NCBI GenBank assembly: GCA_029210625.1
Contig: JARGFU010000015.1
Coordinates: 76,940-140,939, forward strand
Length of the DNA stretch: 64,000 nt
Direction: 5' to 3'
From: Deltaproteobacteria bacterium
Lineage (GTDB): Bacteria; Myxococcota; Myxococcia; SLRQ01
In this document: one piece after another, positions 3,269-33,624 of the stretch
Layout of the letters: each line of letters starts with the position of its first letter
How positions within the stretch are numbered: the stretch's first letter is position 1
Program-made: the position numbers and the translations under genes
Notes under the pieces: model-generated
Database searches by the model: none
The model's input: the letters and a program-made list of their open reading frames with translations, nothing else
Told to the model about the DNA's origin: nothing

Positions 3269-5758
3269 ATGAGAGGTCTCTCCTTCATCCGGAGGCTCGG
3301 GGTCCTCGCCCTCGCGCTCCTCCTCCTCTCGCCCGTCTGGGCGCAGGTCGAGCTCGACCGGGCCGAGGCTGGGCTCGACCGCCTCGAGCAGCTGCGGCGC
3401 GCCGAGATCCGCGGCTGGCGCCAGCAGGTCCAGCAGCTGCGCGCGAAGGAGGGCGCCGACGAGAGCTGGCAGGCGAGCGTCGACACCTTCGCGCTCCAGC
3501 TCGAGGCCGTCCTCCAGGCCGACCTCGTCGATCTCGGCGCCCCCTCCCTCGTGCCCCCGGCCACCCGGCCGGCGCCGATCGCGAGCGAGCCGCCGGACCC
3601 GGCCGCCCTGGAGCGGATGGAGGCCTACGCGGCGCGCGCCGGGGCGCTGAAGGCCCGCGAGGCCCAGCTGCGGGCGGCCCGGGCGAAGGTGAGCGCCGGG
3701 GCGCTGCGCGGGCTCCACCGCCTGGAGTCCTCTCGCACCGGCCCGCCGACGGCCGGCGGCTACTTCCGGGCCGCCGAGCGCGAGCGCCTCCTCGACCGGC
3801 TCCGGCAGAGCCTGCGCATCGCCGAGGAGCACACCCGCCGCCAGCTGCGCGGGCTCCACACCCTCCCCGCCCGCGCCTCCGCGCCCGAGCTCTCGAGGGC
3901 GCTGTGGACCGCCTGCGCCTGGGCGGTGGTGACCCTGGTCGCCTTCGGCCTGGTGGCCCGCCGCAAGGACGCGCTGATGCGCTTCCTGCGCAAGCGCATC
4001 GGCCGGAGCATCGAGCGCCCCGCCCTGCGCCTCTCGGTGGAGCGCTGGGTGCGCTTCTTCCTGGCCATCGGCCCGGCCTTCTTCTGGGTGCTCTTCCTCG
4101 AGGCGATGAACGCGGCGCTCGCCCCGCTGAACCTGGGGGAGGTGCGCCTGCTACGGCTGCTCCTCCTGACCTGGGCCTGGTACCGGGTCGTCCGGGACGG
4201 GGCCCTCCACCTGCTGACGACCTGGGCGGCCGCCCGCGACAACGTGCTGGGGCCCGCGGTGCGCCTGCGAATCATGCGCTCGCTGCGCCTCGGCGGGCGG
4301 ACCGTCGTCGGCCTCCTGGTGGTCCTGCTCTCCCTCGAGCGCCTCGCCGGCGCCGGCCCCCTCTTCCACGCCGCGGCCGCGATCGCCGCGATCTTCCTCG
4401 CCACGAGCCTGCTGGTCCTGGTGGCACACTGGCGAGTGGAGATCCTGGAGACCTGGCGGGAGGACTTCGAGGGGGGCCGGCTCGCCCGCCTCGCCCATCG
4501 CTCCGAGGCCCACCCCACCTTCGAGACCCTCGTCGCCCTGATCCTCGGGCTGGCCCTGGTGGTCGTCCTCTTCGTCCGCGGTCTGCGCGACCTGGCGCTG
4601 CGCTTCACCCGGGTACGCCGCCTCTTCGCCGCCTTCGAGCGCCGCAAGCTCGAGCGCCGCGGCGAGACCGCGGTCTCGGGCGACGACGACCTCGCCCGCC
4701 TGCCCGACGCCATCCAAGACGCCCTGGGGGAGGGCCCCATCGCCCCGGCCGAGGCCCTGCCCCACTTCCCGGGCCTCACCGAGGCCCGGCTCTTCTTCGA
4801 GCAGCGCGCCGACCGCGGCACCGGGGGCAGCCTGGCCCTGGTGGGCGAGCCGGGCTCGGGCCGGCGCAGCTGGCTGCGCGCCCTGGGCGAGGCCTGCAAG
4901 GACATCCCCACCACCGAGCTCACCCTCCCCCGCCGCCCCACCTCCGCCACCGAGGTCTGCGAGCAGCTCATCGCGGGGCTCTCCCTCGAGTGCGAGGCGA
5001 CCCCCGACGCGGTGGTCGCCGCCCTCGAGGCCCGGCCCCTGACCCGGATCGTGGTGCGCAACCCCAAGCTCCTCGCGCTGCGCTGCATGGGGGGGCTGCG
5101 GACCTTCGAGACCTTCCTCGAGATCATCGGCCGCAGCGCCGAGCGGGTGCAGTGGATCTGCGTCTTCCCCGCGGGCCTCTGGCGCTTCCTCTCCCGCGTC
5201 TACAACGAGGTGCACCTCTTCCAGCAGGTCTGCCAGCTCGGCCCCTGGAGCGAGGAGCAGATCGACGAGCTGATCAGCCGCCGGATGCGCCGGGCCAAGG
5301 TCGTGCCCCGCTACCAGATCTCGGTGGTCGACAACCTCGACGGCACGGCCTTCGACACCGAGGTGGTCCACACCGCCCGTCGCTACCACCGGCTGATCTG
5401 GGACTACGCCGACGGCAACCCGGCGGCGGCCCTCCACTTCTGGCTGCGCTCCCTCTCGGTGGACCCCGAGACCGGAGAGGTGGTCGCCCGCCTCTTCCGG
5501 GCGCCGGACGGCGCCGCCCTGGATCGCCTCGACGAGCGCTCCCGCTTCGCCCTGGCCTGCGTCGCCCTCCACGACGGCATCTCCATCCCGGACGCCGCCC
5601 GCGCCCTGGGCTACTCGGTGGGGGAGACCGAGGCGCTGCTCGAGAACCTGCGCGAGTCCGGCGTGCTCGAGGAGCGTGACCGCCACCTGAAGCTCTCCAC
5701 CCACTGGCAGCGCGCGGTCCTGCGCTTCCTGCGCCAGCGCCACCTGGTGGCCGCCTAG
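3269..5758 (+). CDS. multi-pass membrane protein with a degenerate P-loop cytoplasmic domain
   Basis: 829 residues. A signal peptide (1-25) is followed by an Arg/Glu-rich, coiled-coil-like periplasmic segment (to about 205). Several membrane helices follow (around 212-230, 265-290, 350-390, 425-445). The C-terminal cytoplasmic part carries LALVGEPGSGRRSWLRALG (about 521-539), which resembles a Walker A loop but has Arg where the catalytic Lys should be. The later segment RIVVRNPKLLAL lacks an obvious Walker B Asp. A winged-helix-like tail ends the protein (IPDAARALGYSVGETEALLENLRESGVLEER). It therefore looks like a STAND/AAA-like module that may bind but not hydrolyse nucleotide. The stop is 14 bp before an MscS channel gene, so the two proteins probably act together. 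No family name is assigned. Confidence 0.7.
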   Translation: MRGLSFIRRLGVLALALLLLSPVWAQVELDRAEAGLDRLEQLRRAEIRGWRQQVQQLRAKEGADESWQASVDTFALQLEAVLQADLVDLGAPSLVPPATRPAPIASEPPDPAALERMEAYAARAGALKAREAQLRAARAKVSAGALRGLHRLESSRTGPPTAGGYFRAAERERLLDRLRQSLRIAEEHTRRQLRGLHTLPARASAPELSRALWTACAWAVVTLVAFGLVARRKDALMRFLRKRIGRSIERPALRLSVERWVRFFLAIGPAFFWVLFLEAMNAALAPLNLGEVRLLRLLLLTWAWYRVVRDGALHLLTTWAAARDNVLGPAVRLRIMRSLRLGGRTVVGLLVVLLSLERLAGAGPLFHAAAAIAAIFLATSLLVLVAHWRVEILETWREDFEGGRLARLAHRSEAHPTFETLVALILGLALVVVLFVRGLRDLALRFTRVRRLFAAFERRKLERRGETAVSGDDDLARLPDAIQDALGEGPIAPAEALPHFPGLTEARLFFEQRADRGTGGSLALVGEPGSGRRSWLRALGEACKDIPTTELTLPRRPTSATEVCEQLIAGLSLECEATPDAVVAALEARPLTRIVVRNPKLLALRCMGGLRTFETFLEIIGRSAERVQWICVFPAGLWRFLSRVYNEVHLFQQVCQLGPWSEEQIDELISRRMRRAKVVPRYQISVVDNLDGTAFDTEVVHTARRYHRLIWDYADGNPAAALHFWLRSLSVDPETGEVVARLFRAPDGAALDRLDERSRFALACVALHDGISIPDAARALGYSVGETEALLENLRESGVLEERDRHLKLSTHWQRAVLRFLRQRHLVAA

Positions 5759-5772
5759 AGGCCAAGAAGACC

Positions 5773-6591
5773 ATGGTCGAGTTCGACAAGATCCTCGAAG
5801 TGATTCGCCCTGGCGGGATCGTCTCGGGCATCGTGGTCCTCGGCTTCACCTGGCTCCTGGCCGAGGCCATCCGCAAGGGCATGGCCACCTGGAGCGCGCG
5901 CTGGCCCTCCAACCGCCTGGTGCTGCAGCACTCAGGCTCCCTGCTGCGCTACGCGGTCTGGGGCCTCGGAGCCATGGCGGCCCTCTTCCTGGCGGTGGAT
6001 CTCTCCCGGCAGGCGCTCACCGCCCTGGCCGGCATCATCGCCGTGGCCGGGGGCTTCGCCCTCAAGGACGTGGCCACCTCGGTGCTGGCAGGGATCACCC
6101 TCCTGGTCGATCGCCCCTTCCAGGTCGGCGACCGGATCACCTTCGGGGAGCACTACGGCGAGGTGGTCGCCATGGGCCTGCGCTCGGTGAAGCTGATGAC
6201 CCTGGATCACAACCTGGTCACCATCCCCAACGGGAGGCTGCTCACCGACGTGGTCTCCTGCGGGAACGCCGGGGCGATCTCGATGATGGTGCAGCTCGAC
6301 TTCCACCTCGGCGTCGATCAGGATCTGGCGGCTGCCCGCCGGATCGTCACCGACGCCATCACCACCTCGCGCTACGCCTACCTCAGGGAGCCCTGGAAGC
6401 TGGTCGTCAGCCAGGTCACCCTGGGCGAGGTGGTGGCGCTGCGCCTGCGGGCGAAGGTCTACGTCCTCGATCTGGGCTACGAGAAGGACCTGGAGACCGA
6501 CGTCACTTCGAAGGTCACCCTCGCCTTCGCCGAGGCCGGCCTCTCGCCGCCGGCCATCCTCCACCGGCCCCTCCCCGCCGCCGCGGCCTGA
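5773..6591 (+). CDS. MscS-type mechanosensitive ion channel
   Basis: 272 residues, with hydrophobic helices at about 15-32, 57-77 and 85-105. The hallmark pore-helix and beta-domain sequence follows: GIIAVAGGFALKDVATSVLAG, then LLVDRPFQVGDRI and the GEVVAMGLRSVKLMTLDHNLVTIPN stretch. This is the MscS superfamily core, a channel that opens on membrane tension and releases solutes. The protein is close in size to E. coli MscS. It is translationally close to the preceding membrane protein, which suggests a regulated channel. A large inverted repeat follows the stop. Confidence 0.92.
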   Translation: MVEFDKILEVIRPGGIVSGIVVLGFTWLLAEAIRKGMATWSARWPSNRLVLQHSGSLLRYAVWGLGAMAALFLAVDLSRQALTALAGIIAVAGGFALKDVATSVLAGITLLVDRPFQVGDRITFGEHYGEVVAMGLRSVKLMTLDHNLVTIPNGRLLTDVVSCGNAGAISMMVQLDFHLGVDQDLAAARRIVTDAITTSRYAYLREPWKLVVSQVTLGEVVALRLRAKVYVLDLGYEKDLETDVTSKVTLAFAEAGLSPPAILHRPLPAAAA

Positions 6592-26705: not shown

Positions 26706-28022
26706 TCAGGCCGCCTCGGCCGTGGGCCGCTTGAAGCGCAGGACCAGGGTGGTGCCCGGCTTGCCTGCCTCGGAGTGGGCCTCCACCGAGCCCCCGTAGC
26801 GCTCCATGAACATCTTCAGGATCGGCATCCCGAAGCCGGTGCCCTTCTCCCGGCGGACCCCCCGGCGGGTGGTGGGCCGCCCGAAGTCGAAGACGTGGGG
26901 CAGGAGATCGGGCGGGATCCCGGCGCCCTGGTCGCTGACCCGCAGCAGGACCTCCTGTGCGCCGCGCTCCATCTCCACCACCAGGGAGGCGTTGTCGGGG
27001 GAGAACTTGATCGCGTTGGAGACGACGTTCGCCAGGACGTTGCTCACCAGGGAGAAGGGCTCGGCGATCACCTCCAGCTTCTCCCCGGGCTCGAGGCCCC
27101 GGGTCTCCACCGAGAGGTGCCGCCGCTCCAGGTCCCGCTCGAAGAGCTCCAGGGTCTGGAGCAGGGCCTGGGGGAGACAGACGGGGACCGGGCGGATCGA
27201 GAGCTTGCCGGTGCGCATGGCGTTGAAGGCGTTGGTCTGCTCCACGATCTTCATGACCCGGTCGAGCTGCTCCCGCGCGATCTGGCAGCTCTCCCGCGGC
27301 GCCCCCGAGATCTCTCTCTCGACCAGGGAGAGGCGGAGGTCCACCACCATCAGGTGGTTGTTGAGGTCGTGGCCGATCATCGAGAGGAGGGCGCTGTTCG
27401 TCTCGTAGAGATCGAAGACGCGCTCCCTCTGCCCCTCGATCCGCCCCACCATCTGGTCCACCTCGGTGGCGAGGCGCCCGGCGATGTGCCCGCCCACGAC
27501 GACCATGAGCGCAAGGGAGACGAGGTGGAACTCGAAGATATCCTGCTCGGAGAAGGGATCCCCCTCGAGCCCGAGCCTCGGCCGCAGGAAGCCGGCGATC
27601 AACACCAGCAACGAGGAGGCGAGGCCCAGCCGCAGCCCGTCCCGGCGACCGAGGAGGTGGACGCTCAGGATGGTGAGGAGCGGGGGCCAGAAGAGGTTCG
27701 AGAGGAGGCCGTCCGGGGCGTAGAGGTGCTGGGCCCCCAGGAGCAGCTGACAGAGGACCACCGCCAGGACCGAGGTGAGCACGAAGCGATCGGTGAAACG
27801 GAAGCTGAGGGTCAGGAGCAGGAGCGGGACCGCCGCGGCCAGGTTGATCCGGGCCGAGATGAGCTTCCCGGTCGCGAGATCGAAGAAGGAGAAGAAGAAG
27901 ACCACCCCGGTGATGACCAGGAGGTAGCTGACCAGCAGCCGGCGGTTCTTCGTCACCCGAAGATCGGCCTCACGATCCTGCGCCTGCGGCGGCGTGAGCC
28001 ACCGGCTGATCTTCTCGAACAA
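26706..28022 (-). CDS. membrane sensor histidine kinase
   Basis: 438 residues. Six or so hydrophobic helices fill residues 30-200 and there is no large periplasmic domain, so it probably senses a membrane or intramembrane signal. The phosphoacceptor region reads SMIGHDLNNHLMVVDL (His about 217), an HDLNN type rather than the usual HExRxP. The ATPase domain has the N box NVVSNAIKFSP, G1 DQGAGIPP, F box and G2 GTGFGMPI. No response regulator gene is adjacent, so the kinase is an orphan here. It precedes a DUF2490 gene on the same strand in reverse order. Confidence 0.9.
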   Translation of the reverse strand: MFEKISRWLTPPQAQDREADLRVTKNRRLLVSYLLVITGVVFFFSFFDLATGKLISARINLAAAVPLLLLTLSFRFTDRFVLTSVLAVVLCQLLLGAQHLYAPDGLLSNLFWPPLLTILSVHLLGRRDGLRLGLASSLLVLIAGFLRPRLGLEGDPFSEQDIFEFHLVSLALMVVVGGHIAGRLATEVDQMVGRIEGQRERVFDLYETNSALLSMIGHDLNNHLMVVDLRLSLVEREISGAPRESCQIAREQLDRVMKIVEQTNAFNAMRTGKLSIRPVPVCLPQALLQTLELFERDLERRHLSVETRGLEPGEKLEVIAEPFSLVSNVLANVVSNAIKFSPDNASLVVEMERGAQEVLLRVSDQGAGIPPDLLPHVFDFGRPTTRRGVRREKGTGFGMPILKMFMERYGGSVEAHSEAGKPGTTLVLRFKRPTAEAA

Positions 28023-28070
28023 GCTCTCCTCCCGGCAGGCGGCTCCCCGGGGAGCCGCTCGACTGGAGGT

Positions 28071-28730
28071 CTACCGGATCGAGAAGCGGTAACCCAGACC
28101 CAGGATGTGCCAGGTGTCGGGGTTCGGATCGCCGATGGGGCGCTGAACCCGGTAGAAGAGCTCGCAGTCGTGATCCGCGATCGAGTAGGCGGCGCCGAGG
28201 GTCAGCCGCCACTTGGTGGCTCCGGTGGTGCCTCCCCCGAGCTGCAGGTAGAGCTCGGCTTCGACGAAGGGCTCGACCCCGAGCTCGGTGCCGTAGGCGA
28301 GGCCGATCCGCTGGCGCAGCACCGGCTCGAGCGGATCACCGCTGCCCGACGCGCCGGAGGTGAGCTGCAGCCGGGCCCGGTAGGCCAGGGTGACCTCCCC
28401 GACGCGGTAGCGGGGCAGGAGGTCCAGCATCACCCGGTGGGCGGTGGTGAACTGGCGCTGGTTGTTTCCCTCGGCGATGAGGCGGTAGCCGAGCGCCGCA
28501 CGGAAGTTCTTGTGGACGCCGTAGCGCAGACCCAGCTCGGGCATGATCTTGCGCAGGCGCGTCAGGTCGTTGTCCCAGCGCAGGTGCTGATCGAAGGAGA
28601 GCCAGAGCTCCTTCACGGGCCGGTAGCGCACCCCTCCCTCGAGCCAGAGCTGGGCCTCGGGGGCGGCCCGGGCCGGCAGGGGCGAGAGGAGCGCCAGCGC
28701 GAGGAGCGGCAGGAGGAGTCGGCGGGTCAT
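28071..28730 (-). CDS. DUF2490-like outer-membrane beta-barrel protein
   Basis: 219 residues. A signal peptide (ending PARAAPEA) is followed by alternating beta-strand pattern typical of a small barrel, with aromatic residues (LWLSFDQHLRWDND, RAALGYRLIAEGNNQ) and a C-terminal strand ending in YRFSIR. This resembles DUF2490 proteins, which often sit beside DUF4956 and VTC genes. It overlaps the DUF4956 gene stop by 4 bp. Confidence 0.7.
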   Translation of the reverse strand: MTRRLLLPLLALALLSPLPARAAPEAQLWLEGGVRYRPVKELWLSFDQHLRWDNDLTRLRKIMPELGLRYGVHKNFRAALGYRLIAEGNNQRQFTTAHRVMLDLLPRYRVGEVTLAYRARLQLTSGASGSGDPLEPVLRQRIGLAYGTELGVEPFVEAELYLQLGGGTTGATKWRLTLGAAYSIADHDCELFYRVQRPIGDPNPDTWHILGLGYRFSIR

Positions 28731-29410
28731 GCGTTCACCTCCCCGCGCTCGGCGGGCTCGAGGGTCGCGGCGCCGGACTCGGCGTCCACGCAGTAGACGG
28801 TGATCTCGGCGGTGTCCCGCAGGAGGTTCACGCTCATCACCTCGGCCCGGGCGATGACCAGCCCGGTGCGGGCGCGCAGATCGGCCCGCAGCTCCGCCTC
28901 CCTCCCCGGCTTGAGCAGCTCGAGGTCGTCGTAGGTGATGAGCTTCGACTCGAAGTACTTGTGCCGCAGGACGTACTCGAGGGTGTAGGTGAGGCCGACG
29001 ATGGCGATGTTCATCACCAGCAGCTCGGCGACGCTGATCTTCTTGTTGGCCAGCGCGTTGAGGATGGCGAGGCCGATGACCACGAAGAGGTAGGTCAGAT
29101 CGCGGATCCGGATCGGCTCGGTGCGGTAGCGCAGGATCCCGAAGACCGCGAAGAGGCCGAGGGCGAAGCCCAGCTCGATGGGCACCTTCCGCAGCAGGAA
29201 GCAGAGCGAGAAGGTGATGAGGTTGAAGATGAAGTAGGTGAAGACCTGGTCGTTCCAGCGGTAGCGCCGGACGTAGACGAAGCGGACGATCAGCGTCGTG
29301 AAGAAGAGATCGGTGCCCAGCCGGACGACCAGCTTCGCGACGGCCTCGATGTCCATGAACTCGTTGGCGCCGTAGACGTCCAGGAACCAGGCGAGCAACT
29401 CATCGAGCAT
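28727..29410 (-). CDS. DUF4956 membrane protein
   Basis: 227 residues with four or five hydrophobic helices in the first 150, then a soluble C-terminal domain (KLITYDDLELLKPGREAELRADL). LGFALGLFAVFGILRYRTEPIRIRDLTYLFVVIGLAILNALA is the signature stretch of DUF4956 proteins. These commonly accompany VTC-domain (polyphosphate polymerase-like) and CotH genes, which here follow directly. Its start overlaps the truncated VTC reading frame by 11 bp, so the original gene order VTC-DUF4956-DUF2490 was an operon. Confidence 0.8.
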   Translation of the reverse strand: MLDELLAWFLDVYGANEFMDIEAVAKLVVRLGTDLFFTTLIVRFVYVRRYRWNDQVFTYFIFNLITFSLCFLLRKVPIELGFALGLFAVFGILRYRTEPIRIRDLTYLFVVIGLAILNALANKKISVAELLVMNIAIVGLTYTLEYVLRHKYFESKLITYDDLELLKPGREAELRADLRARTGLVIARAEVMSVNLLRDTAEITVYCVDAESGAATLEPAERGEVNA

Positions 29411-29706
29411 GATGGGACCTCATGATCTCTCGCACCCGGGTCGGGGTGCGGTAGGCCCGCGGCTCCTCTCCGCTCAGGGAGACGGCCGCGCAGTACTTGG
29501 AGAAGCCCCCGGGGTGGATCCGGCAGGCGCGGATCGCCCTCATCCCCGGCGTCCGGGGTCCGAAGCGGGGCTGCTTGAGCTCGGCGATGACGAGCTCGGG
29601 GATGTCGATCCGCGAGCGCTCGGTCTGGACGGTCAGGCCGAGATCCAGGGTCACGCGCTCGACGCTCCGGCTGCCGACGAGGGTCACCCGGGGGAAGAGC
29701 AGCCAC
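29400..29706 (-). pseudogene. VTC-domain (polyphosphate polymerase-like) gene, C-terminal remnant
   Basis: The frame encodes RVTLDLGLTVQ, IPELVIAELKQ and FSKYCAAVSL, the last part of a VTC domain (inorganic polyphosphate polymerase-like fold). The N-terminal two thirds, with the catalytic Arg/Lys residues and start, are missing. Upstream of about 29706 the frame only reads the antisense of the CotH remnant. The junction is placed between 29695 and 29715 by where homology on each strand stops. Confidence 0.7.
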
Positions 29707-30822
29707 TGGGAGGGCGCCCTCTCGGACTTCCGGCCCGACTGGGTCGGCACCTTCCAGCGCAAGAGCAACAAGTTGAGCGACGACCGCTCCCAGCTCGAGG
29801 CGCTGGTGCCCGTGATGCAGCTCCCCGACGACCAGCTCCTCGCCGCCCTCGAGCCTCACCTCGACGTCGACGCCTTCCTCGACTTCTGGATCACCGAGCT
29901 GATCATCTCCCACGCCGACGGCTACGCCCGGAACACGAACAACTTCTATCTCTACTTCGACCCCGACACCGGGCGGATGAACTTCATCCCCTGGGGCATC
30001 GACTCGATCTTCCACGTGGGCAACCGCGCGGCCCCCTGGGAGGAGCGGCCGCCCCCGGAGATCCTCTGGGAGGAGGGCGTCCTCGCTCACCGCCTCTACC
30101 GGCACCCGACGATGGGGCCCCTCTACCTCGAGCGCCTGCCCTTGCTCCTCGACGCGCTCTGGGACGAGGACGCGCTGCTGGCCCGGGCGAACGAGTACCA
30201 CGCCCTGCTCTCGCCCTACGTGGTCGACGCGAACCGCGAGGCCTTCGAGGGCGAGGTCGATCGGGTGCGCTACTTCATCCGCAGCCGGCGGGACGCCCTC
30301 CAGAACGCCCTGGCCCGGCCGCCGCCGGTCACCGACGACCTCCTGCGCGACCCCTGGTGCGTGGACCAGATCGGCACCGTCCAGGCCACCTTCGCCACCA
30401 CCTGGGGCAACCTCGCCGAGCAGGATCCCTTCGCGGCGGGCACGGGCACCCTCACCCTGGACCCGGCGGTGGACCCCACCCTGCCGCCGATCACCCGCGT
30501 CGGCTCCAAGAGCGGCTACGACGAGCAGGGCCGGCAGAACGTGATCCAGGTCGTCACCTGGCACGATCCGAACATCGCCCTGGTGCTGAACCTGACCGTC
30601 GCCAACCCGGCGGACCTCGCCCCGGGGATGTCCCTGCCCCTCGACTGGCTCGAGAGCTCGGGCCACATCTTCAAGGTGATCTTCCAGCCGGGGGCCGATC
30701 CCGAGGTGTCGATCCTCGGGCTGGTGGGCGACGGCGTGCTCTACCTCCACGAGGCCGGCACCGAGGCGGGCGACGGCGTCGTCGGCACCGTCGACGCGCT
30801 GGTCTACGAGTCGATCTGGTGA
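29707..30822 (+). pseudogene. CotH-family spore-coat kinase-like gene, N-terminally truncated
   Basis: About 370 residues of a CotH-family protein: DFRPDWVGTFQRK, then LDVDAFLDFWITELIISHADGY and NNFYLYFDPDTGRMNFIPWGIDSIF, parallel to the intact neighbour at 30819 (DFRPGIVQGLQPK, LDAFLTFWAMEVITDHWDGF, NNFYAYHDPVSDRFRFIPWGVDSTF). About 200 N-terminal residues, including the signal sequence and N-lobe, are gone; the sequence instead runs directly into the antisense VTC remnant. The frame stays open upstream only by antisense reading. The C-terminal beta-rich domain is retained and coupled (GTGA overlap) to the next gene. Confidence 0.75.
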
Positions 30823-32474
30823 TCCCCCGGAGCCAGGGTCGGGGGCCGCTGGCGCTCCTCCTCCTCCTGCTGGCGGTGGGCTGCGGCCGGGAGGAGGGCG
30901 ACAGCTCCGGCCTGCTCTTCCCGGCCGATCGGCTCCTCGAGATCGAGATCACCCTCGACCCGGGCGACTGGGAGCTGCTGCGTCACGAGCCCGACGACAT
31001 CGGCCACCCCAAGGTGACCTGCGCCGAGCAGCCGACCGACCCCAAGTACACCTACTTCCCGGCCGAGGTGAGCATCGACGGCGTGCGCTACCCCGACGTG
31101 GCGGTGCGCAAGAAGGGAGGCTTCGGCTCCCTCTCCACCCTGCGGCCGGGGCTGAAGGTGAAGACCAACGAGTACGTCCCCGGCCAGGAGATCCATGGCC
31201 TGAAGCGCCTGACCCTGAACAACAACCACCAGGATCAGGCGCTCCTGCGGCAGTGCCTCACCTACGGCCTCTTTGCCGACGCCGGGCTGCCCGCCTCGCG
31301 CTGCGCCTTCGCCCACGTGACGGTCAACGGTGAGGACCTGGGCGTCTACTCCCACGTCGAGAGCATCAAGAAGCCCTTCCTCGGCCGCTTCTTCGAGGAC
31401 GACTCGGGCAACCTCTACGAGGGGGGCGGCGACTTCCGACCGGGGATCGTGCAGGGCCTCCAGCCCAAGGTGGACAAGGAGGCCCCCGACTGCTCGGACC
31501 TCGACCGCATCGTGGACGTCTTCCAGCTGCCCGACGGCGACTTCGATCGGCGCGTCGATGAGGTGATCGACCTCGACGCCTTCCTCACCTTCTGGGCGAT
31601 GGAGGTCATCACCGATCACTGGGACGGCTTCACCAACGGACCGAACAACTTCTACGCCTACCACGACCCCGTCAGCGATCGCTTCCGCTTCATCCCCTGG
31701 GGGGTCGACAGCACCTTCGAGGGGCGCCAGCGCACCGGACGGCCCTCCTCGGTCTTCGCCTGCTCGATCCTCCCCTGGCGCCTCTACGACCGGCCGCCCA
31801 CCCGCGAGCGCTACGTCACTCGCCTCGAGGAGCTCCTCGCCTCGGTCTGGGATCCCGCCCGGATCGTGGGCGAGATCGATCGGATGGAGGCGCTGATCAC
31901 GCCCTCCACGACGGGCAACGGCGTCGCGGATCTCGCCGGCCAGATCCAGGGCGTGCGCGACTTCGCCACCTCCCGCCGCGACCTCCTGGAGGCCGAGCTG
32001 ATCGACGGGCCGCCGGTCTGGCCGACCCCGCTGCAGGATCCCCCCTGCCTGGCGCTCCTGGGCAACCTCTCCGGCACCTTCCAGGCCACCTGGGGCACCC
32101 TCGGCACCTTCCCCGCCGGGAACGGCACCATGAGCGGCAACGTGACCGGCCGGCCGGTGAGCTCGAGCACCCTCAACGCCACCGCCGGCCTCGACGAGGA
32201 GGGCAAGGTCGTCCTCCAGCTCTTCGCGCCCCAGGCCGACGGCACCTACGCGGTCGTGATGGCCATCGTCCACGACCCGGCCGACTTCGTGGTGGGTGAC
32301 CTCCCCTTCAACCTCGTCGACCTCGCGGGCATCACCGGCTTCTACGATCCGGGGACCGACACCTTCGAGGGCGGCTGGCTGTTGCTCGGCGGGCAGCTCA
32401 CCCTCGAGCAGGCAGGCACCACGGCAGGCGCCCCGGTCGTCGGCTCCTTCAGCGCGCAGGTCGTGGAGCTGTAG
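30819..32474 (+). CDS. CotH-family lipoprotein
   Basis: 551 residues from GTG 30819, overlapping the upstream stop. The signal peptide ends in LLLAVGC, so it is a lipoprotein. The CotH kinase-like domain (about 35-400) contains FAHVTVNGEDLGVYSHVESIKKPFL, GNLYEGGGDFRP and NNFYAYHDPVSDRFRFIPWGVDS. CotH proteins are atypical secreted protein kinases. A C-terminal domain (about 410-551; GTFQATWGTLGTFPAGNGTMSG) is shared with the truncated neighbour. The intact partner presumably took over any shared role. Confidence 0.85.
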   Translation: MIPRSQGRGPLALLLLLLAVGCGREEGDSSGLLFPADRLLEIEITLDPGDWELLRHEPDDIGHPKVTCAEQPTDPKYTYFPAEVSIDGVRYPDVAVRKKGGFGSLSTLRPGLKVKTNEYVPGQEIHGLKRLTLNNNHQDQALLRQCLTYGLFADAGLPASRCAFAHVTVNGEDLGVYSHVESIKKPFLGRFFEDDSGNLYEGGGDFRPGIVQGLQPKVDKEAPDCSDLDRIVDVFQLPDGDFDRRVDEVIDLDAFLTFWAMEVITDHWDGFTNGPNNFYAYHDPVSDRFRFIPWGVDSTFEGRQRTGRPSSVFACSILPWRLYDRPPTRERYVTRLEELLASVWDPARIVGEIDRMEALITPSTTGNGVADLAGQIQGVRDFATSRRDLLEAELIDGPPVWPTPLQDPPCLALLGNLSGTFQATWGTLGTFPAGNGTMSGNVTGRPVSSSTLNATAGLDEEGKVVLQLFAPQADGTYAVVMAIVHDPADFVVGDLPFNLVDLAGITGFYDPGTDTFEGGWLLLGGQLTLEQAGTTAGAPVVGSFSAQVVEL

Positions 32475-32490
32475 TAGAAGTCGAGGGACC

Positions 32491-33624
32491 GTGCCCCGCC
32501 GCCGCTCACTCCTCGTCCGCCTCGCTCCTCTCCTGCTGGTCGCGGCCCTGGCGCTCCTGGCGGGCCGCCTCCTGAAGCGGCACCTGCGCGCGGCGGCGCC
32601 GCCCCCGCCACCGCCGCCGGAGGCCGAGGCCGCGGTCGACCTCCCGCCCCGGGGGCCCGCGGCGACCCCGGGGGCCCACCCGATCCTGCCCCCCTTCAGG
32701 GGTGACCTGGACCACCCCCTCCTCCTCGATCCCGGGCCGGCCGAGCCCTCGGGAGTGGTCTACCTCCCCGAGCACGAGGGCTTCCTGGTGGTCGACGACG
32801 AGTCGACCCTCGAGCCCCAGCGCGGCATCTTCTTCCTCGCCACCACCCCCGACGGGGGCCTCTCTCCGATCCCGGTGCGCCTGGATGACCTGGGCGCGCG
32901 CCAGACCTGGGACGACCTCGAGGCCGTCGCCGCCAGCCCCGAGACCCTGCTCTTCCTCGCCTCCCACGCCTACGACAGCAGCTGGCGCCAGCGGATCTGC
33001 TGGGCGCCGCGGGCCGGCCTCTCGCGCGCGAAGGAGGGCGAGGCCCTCCTCCTCGAGGGCCTGCAGTGCACCTCGGAGCGGCGCTCCCGCGAGGCCCTGC
33101 TCGAGGCCCTGGAGCCCGCGGTCGGCGAGGAGCCGGAGCTCGACCTCGAGGGCCTGACCTTCTCCGAGGCCGCCGGCGCCTTCCTCGTCGGCGTGCGCCA
33201 CCCCCTGGCGAAGGAGCGCGCCCTCCTGCTGACCCTCCAGCCGCCGCGCGGCAGATCCGGCCACCTGCAGATCCAGCTCGCCCGCACCCTGGACCTGAAG
33301 CAGCGGGGCATCCGCGGGATGTCCTTCCTCGATCGCCGCCGGCTCGTCCTCGCGGCCGGCCCCGCCGGGGACAACCCGGGGCGCTTCGATCTCTACCTCC
33401 ACGATCTCGCCGAGGCCGACGAGGCGAAGGCGACCACCCTCCTCACCCCCGCCGGCTTCCCCCTCCACCTCGGGGGTGACCCCACCGCCCGCAAGCTGCG
33501 GATCGAGGGGCTGGCCTTCGACGGCGAGGCACTCCTGGTACTCTGCGACTCCGGCGACTGGCCCGAGGAGGGGGTGAGCGCCGCCCCGACCTACACCTTC
33601 CGCCTGCCCCTGCAGGCGGACTAG
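32491..33624 (+). CDS. membrane-anchored DUF3616-like beta-propeller protein
   Basis: 377 residues from GTG 32491. One N-terminal helix (about 8-25), a Pro-rich linker with eight consecutive Pro, then SGVVYLPEHEGFLVVDDESTLEPQRGIFFL, TWDDLEAVAAS, LDLEGLTFSEAAGAFLVGVRHP and LRIEGLAFDGEALLVLCDSGDW. This repeated blade-like pattern fits DUF3616/esterase-like phytase propellers. It follows the CotH gene by 16 bp. It overlaps the end of the convergent TonB receptor by 4 bp. Confidence 0.65.
   Translation: MPRRRSLLVRLAPLLLVAALALLAGRLLKRHLRAAAPPPPPPPEAEAAVDLPPRGPAATPGAHPILPPFRGDLDHPLLLDPGPAEPSGVVYLPEHEGFLVVDDESTLEPQRGIFFLATTPDGGLSPIPVRLDDLGARQTWDDLEAVAASPETLLFLASHAYDSSWRQRICWAPRAGLSRAKEGEALLLEGLQCTSERRSREALLEALEPAVGEEPELDLEGLTFSEAAGAFLVGVRHPLAKERALLLTLQPPRGRSGHLQIQLARTLDLKQRGIRGMSFLDRRRLVLAAGPAGDNPGRFDLYLHDLAEADEAKATTLLTPAGFPLHLGGDPTARKLRIEGLAFDGEALLVLCDSGDWPEEGVSAAPTYTFRLPLQAD

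Follow-up and report, generated by a model that had tools for sequence, protein, structure and literature searches.

Gene organization of the locus

The window, that is, the whole 64,000-nucleotide stretch analysed in this study, corresponds to bases 76,940-140,939 of contig 15 in a 64-contig draft genome of 6.11 Mb (completeness 98.04%, contamination 0.07%). GC content at the locus is 72%. On the minus strand lie the genes for a DUF2490 protein (28071-28730; profile positions 2-176 of 186) and a DUF4956 membrane protein (28727-29410; 1-168 of 169), both whole, followed by the C-terminal stump of a VTC gene with its polyphosphate polymerase domain (29400-29714; about 100 codons and the stop codon). 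On the plus strand lie the C-terminal part of a first CotH gene, CotH1 (29707-30822, or from about 29701 at the widest; about 370 codons), and a second, whole CotH gene, CotH2 (30819-32474), which has a lipoprotein-like start and matches positions 18-547 of 580 in the CotH profile. The VTC stop codon overlaps the DUF4956 start, the DUF4956 stop overlaps the DUF2490 start, and the CotH1 stop overlaps the GTG start of CotH2. Given these three overlaps, the genes most likely form two operons running outward from an intergenic region that has been lost. An earlier sequence-only reading had described the DUF4956, DUF2490 and CotH2 genes as intact; this is right for their sequences, which have full-length profile matches, but it leaves out the probable loss of their promoters.

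An accessory group of cotH, polyphosphate polymerase and DUF4956 genes beside pel genes is described in PMC7112168 for streptococci, clostridia and bifidobacteria. The same three families adjoin in the window. In the group as described there, the genes are whole and stand beside pelDEADAFG, whereas in the window DUF2490 and a second CotH gene are added and the VTC and CotH1 genes are broken.

The VTC stump

The VTC profile PF09359 matched the minus-strand frame 29403-29771 only from position 142 to 232 of 235, with an E-value of 0.0032 and 17.5 bits, which is under the 23-bit cut-off. A profile built from relatives gave 85.9 bits over positions 185-289 of 294. Only the C-terminal 100 or so residues are thus encoded, and 22 of the 37 VTC columns that are conserved at 90% or more fall in the missing front half, which in the family is rich in conserved Arg, Lys and Glu. 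The conserved C-terminal residues (R-x-TL, ER-T-D, E-KQ and SKY) are present; 13 of 15 such columns are kept, and the two lost ones belong to the C-terminal tail. The sole listed start of the frame sits inside CotH-derived DNA. Judged from its sequence, the stump is what remains of a VTC gene and not a working member of the family. Against solved structures, the profile of A1 gave no better than a weak match, to Vtc2 (E 0.037).

The first CotH gene and its catalytic residues

PF08757 (CotH) matched the plus-strand frame 29497-30822 from position 135 of 322 with 63 bits. The longer CotH profile matched the CotH1 frame at 217-547 of 580 (201.8 bits), beginning at residue 86, which is base 29710. 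CotH1 lacks its first 200 residues or so; a full domain with its front half and the export signal (signal peptide) are absent. BLAST extended CotH homology upstream of the junction, to frame residue 23 with locus L037 and to residue 52 with locus L136. This extension was rejected because no conserved motif stands before (Y/W)EG in the alignments and the profile match begins at 29710.

In B. subtilis CotH, according to PMC7821199, replacement of D228 by Gln inactivates the protein and D251A is inactive too, so both Asp residues are essential. The FDGF and PWD motifs would be the counterparts of D228 and D251, as their spacing of 23 suggests. CotH1 keeps the catalytic-loop motif HxDGY: its HADGY lines up with HWDGF in CotH2 and FDGF in the structure 5jd9, and the Asp equivalent to D228 is therefore present in the stump. 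Both genes had been read as beheaded with loss of their catalytic parts. The partial profile matches, together with the full forms in relatives, bear out the beheading, but what CotH1 lost is not the part with the catalytic Asp. At the position matching D251, CotH1 and CotH2 both have Gly. This Gly was seen in 9 of 60 aligned CotH rows, CotH1 and CotH2 included, with an Asp two residues further on. The subgroup, which has PWGxD instead of PWDxN/D, comprises the two window genes (29936-30027 and 31642-31733) and L037, L136, L006-L009 and L014. Its members may be pseudokinases, or the Asp two residues on may be used instead.

Junction and length of the missing segment

The VTC and CotH homologies meet head to head within 29701-29717, with weak end matches allowed for. 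DNA to the left is VTC-derived and DNA to the right is CotH-derived, and at most about 17 bases are ambiguous. The sequence-only reading had placed the meeting point of the minus-strand VTC and plus-strand CotH C-terminal sequences at about 29700, and the profile ends confirm it. Both frames stay open through the junction into the DNA of the other gene, the minus-strand frame to 29855 and the plus-strand frame to 29455, which is unremarkable at 72% GC. Gene callers may therefore extend both and annotate a 'CotH' of 441 residues and a 'VTC' protein of 123, a point for annotators to bear in mind.

The missing segment was sized by the distance between two landmarks, the Phe codon in the VTC motif F-x-R-x-T-L and the codon that follows the Tyr in the CotH motif L-Y-E/K. 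This distance is 1186 bp in L136 and 1320 bp in L036, the two relatives with an intact divergent pair, and 14 bp in the window. Thus, 1172 bp are missing by comparison with L136 and about 1306 bp by comparison with L036, or about 1.17-1.31 kb. The parts to be summed are 157-181 VTC codons (from four relatives), the 42 bp between the start codons in L136 and 200 CotH codons (from the length of CotH2 itself). Inverted repeats listed for 28000-32500 include none at the junction. Recombination between the two CotH copies was also considered as a source of the junction and was rejected: it would yield a fused CotH gene, and the longer direct repeats are shared between the two CotH copies and not between the ends of the junction.

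The locus in relatives

DUF4956 relatives were taken from a one-genome-per-species collection, and all of the best 80 of 112 were examined. In 77 of these 80 loci the gene immediately upstream of DUF4956 is a VTC gene. The remaining three are locus ends, where the stored sequence stops 2, 63 and 142 bases from the start of DUF4956. The window follows the same arrangement, with the VTC gene as a stump. The VTC domain is uncut in 75 of the 77 genes (best 80 of 112 loci), with 244-377 residues from stop to stop; L113, one of the 75, touches the locus end. The two exceptions are L079, which is cut by the locus end, and L045, which is split. In L045, the VTC profile is covered over 5365-6007 by two ORFs that overlap (5365-5655 and 5633-6007), and the split is a frameshift or a sequencing error. 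A short form of the window's type was looked for and found in none of the 77 VTC genes (best 80 of 112 DUF4956 loci). The short form in the window is thus atypical of the family.

A CotH gene was detected at 27 of the 80 loci (best 80 of 112), many of which have short flanks. The earlier description of a conserved cluster is accordingly well founded for VTC-DUF4956 and less so for CotH. In most CotH-bearing loci the CotH and VTC genes share a strand, and the divergent order was seen in only two of the best 80 of 112, L136 and L036. L136 belongs to genome G170, of the same phylum, and holds two full genes, VTC on the minus strand (ATG at 4743) and CotH on the plus strand (ATG at 4786), their inferred starts being 42 bp apart. 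L036, from a Deltaproteobacteria UBA12015 MAG, has an intact head-to-head VTC/CotH pair. These pairs resemble the window in their head-to-head order, and both members are homologous to the stumps; they differ in being made up of whole genes whose starts face one another. In G170 the pair is on a different contig from DUF4956-DUF2490 (L135), which has an unrelated gene upstream, and the cluster is split in this genome. The divergent order would be ancestral at exactly the site in the window.

A protein search found close DUF4956 matches in 6 of 195 genomes of the phylum, the window's own included, and none of the other five belongs to the class. With a more sensitive family search, 85 of 147 genomes of the class had a match, own genome included, and all the others were far weaker. 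The nearest relatives of the window's DUF4956 protein are outside the class, and horizontal gain of the cluster is possible. The close cluster is thus patchy, and its partial loss is hardly surprising. No match to CotH, DUF4956 or VTC came from the sole genome of the same family, which is 85% complete.

Missing halves and decay of the stumps

A profile, A2, was made of the VTC front halves of eight relatives. It gave no match at E ≤ 10 in the assembled contigs of the window's own genome (G000). Over six genomes it matched in G170, G181, G188 and G190 and not in G000 or G168, so that four of the five other genomes served as positive controls. G190 is apparently the source of one training row of A2, its locus L120 having the coordinates of L037. 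PF09359 found nothing in G000, which is a weaker test since even the stump goes unreported. The PF08757 search placed CotH at three sites in the own genome, namely CotH2, the CotH1 stump and one on contig 3, and showed no orphan CotH front there.

Decay was compared across the 75 loci in which both VTC and DUF4956 proteins were usable. The divergence of the VTC stump relative to DUF4956 is ordinary (mean residual -0.025, pair s.d. 0.072), and 16 of the 75 relatives rank lower. The GC fraction at third codon positions, which is 93-98% in five intact neighbours, comes to 92% for the VTC stump and 98% for the CotH stump. No decay was seen in the stumps by conserved columns for VTC or by third-position GC for both. 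This means that the event is recent or that the assembly is in error.

Origin of the junction

We consider it likely that the locus has undergone a real and recent deletion of about 1.2 kb in which the front parts of two divergent genes were lost. Such a deletion would have taken about 160-180 codons from the front of VTC, a short divergent promoter region and about 200 codons from the front of CotH1. Left over would be two stumps that have neither start nor promoter and point apart. We infer one event, and a recent one. From the sequence, one deletion of this size would explain all the observed features. The intact divergent pairs in L136 and L036 put the loss at about 1.17 and 1.31 kb. Ordinary deletion pseudogenes of bacteria have cut 5' ends, a clean junction and untouched flanking genes. 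The window is alike in all three respects and shows no difference in kind; the event would be an ordinary gene-breaking deletion, with two genes broken together because of its position.

The main rival, which we regard as unlikely, is an assembly error or a mixed population, in which the genes are whole in the living genome or in most of the population and about 1.2 kb was skipped. The stumps are undecayed and the three neighbouring genes, which would have lost their promoter, are whole, as an assembly error would also leave them, and in a 64-contig draft at 98.04% completeness the missing piece could in principle fall in a gap. However, a k-mer misjoin requires a word common to both ends, usually of 21 bases or more. 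A misjoin is therefore disfavoured, since the 17 or so junction bases that at most fit both genes are below the usual assembly word, and the missing VTC half is on no other contig. The scarcity of divergent CotH loci (two among the best 80 of 112) is a further point against a simple deletion. It leads to the idea of a multi-step rearrangement, such as a deletion that came after an inversion or insertion: with CotH mostly on the same strand as VTC, the divergent order must have arisen by rearrangement at some time, and the separation of the VTC/CotH pair from DUF4956-DUF2490 in G170 indicates that the cluster is mobile. Nevertheless, two relatives have the divergent pair intact, neither a VTC front half nor an orphan CotH front is found elsewhere in the assembled contigs, and the listed inverted repeats (28000-32500) miss the junction, which makes this history very improbable. 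It is hardly credible that the short proteins work in their present form, with, say, a regulatory or binding role. Both frames do stay open and conserved residues remain in them, but none of the 77 VTC genes (best 80 of 112 loci) is so short, most of the highly conserved VTC columns (22 of 37) were in the missing front, CotH1 has no export signal, and the one start listed for the VTC frame falls in CotH-derived DNA.

Consequences of the probable deletion

If the deletion is real, both stumps are probably dead and their products inactive, and the promoter of both operons was probably removed with the intergenic region. The DUF4956-DUF2490 genes and CotH2, having lost their native promoter, would be expressed poorly or not at all. 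A scan of 29300-30900, restricted to consensus promoters of the sigma-70 type and to terminators, found none. It is improbable that the deletion is fixed in the lineage with DUF4956, DUF2490 and CotH2 still expressed and kept by selection. If this were true, the module could work without its polyphosphate polymerase, and the functions of the membrane protein and CotH would be separable from VTC-made polyphosphate. The genome has one match to a PPK-type polyphosphate kinase gene, on contig 17, and polyphosphate synthesis itself need therefore not be lost. If the deletion is real, this cell is a natural double knockout that has lost both a polyphosphate-polymerase-like gene and a CotH gene and retains a PPK-type kinase gene. 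The usefulness of this is modest; the cluster is poorly studied and recurs in genomes of Bacteroidota and Myxococcota.

Very long open frames run antisense to the real genes, at 29290-30750 and 30804-32273 on the minus strand and 26775-28796 on the plus strand. Such frames are expected in DNA of 72% GC and may be mis-called as genes.
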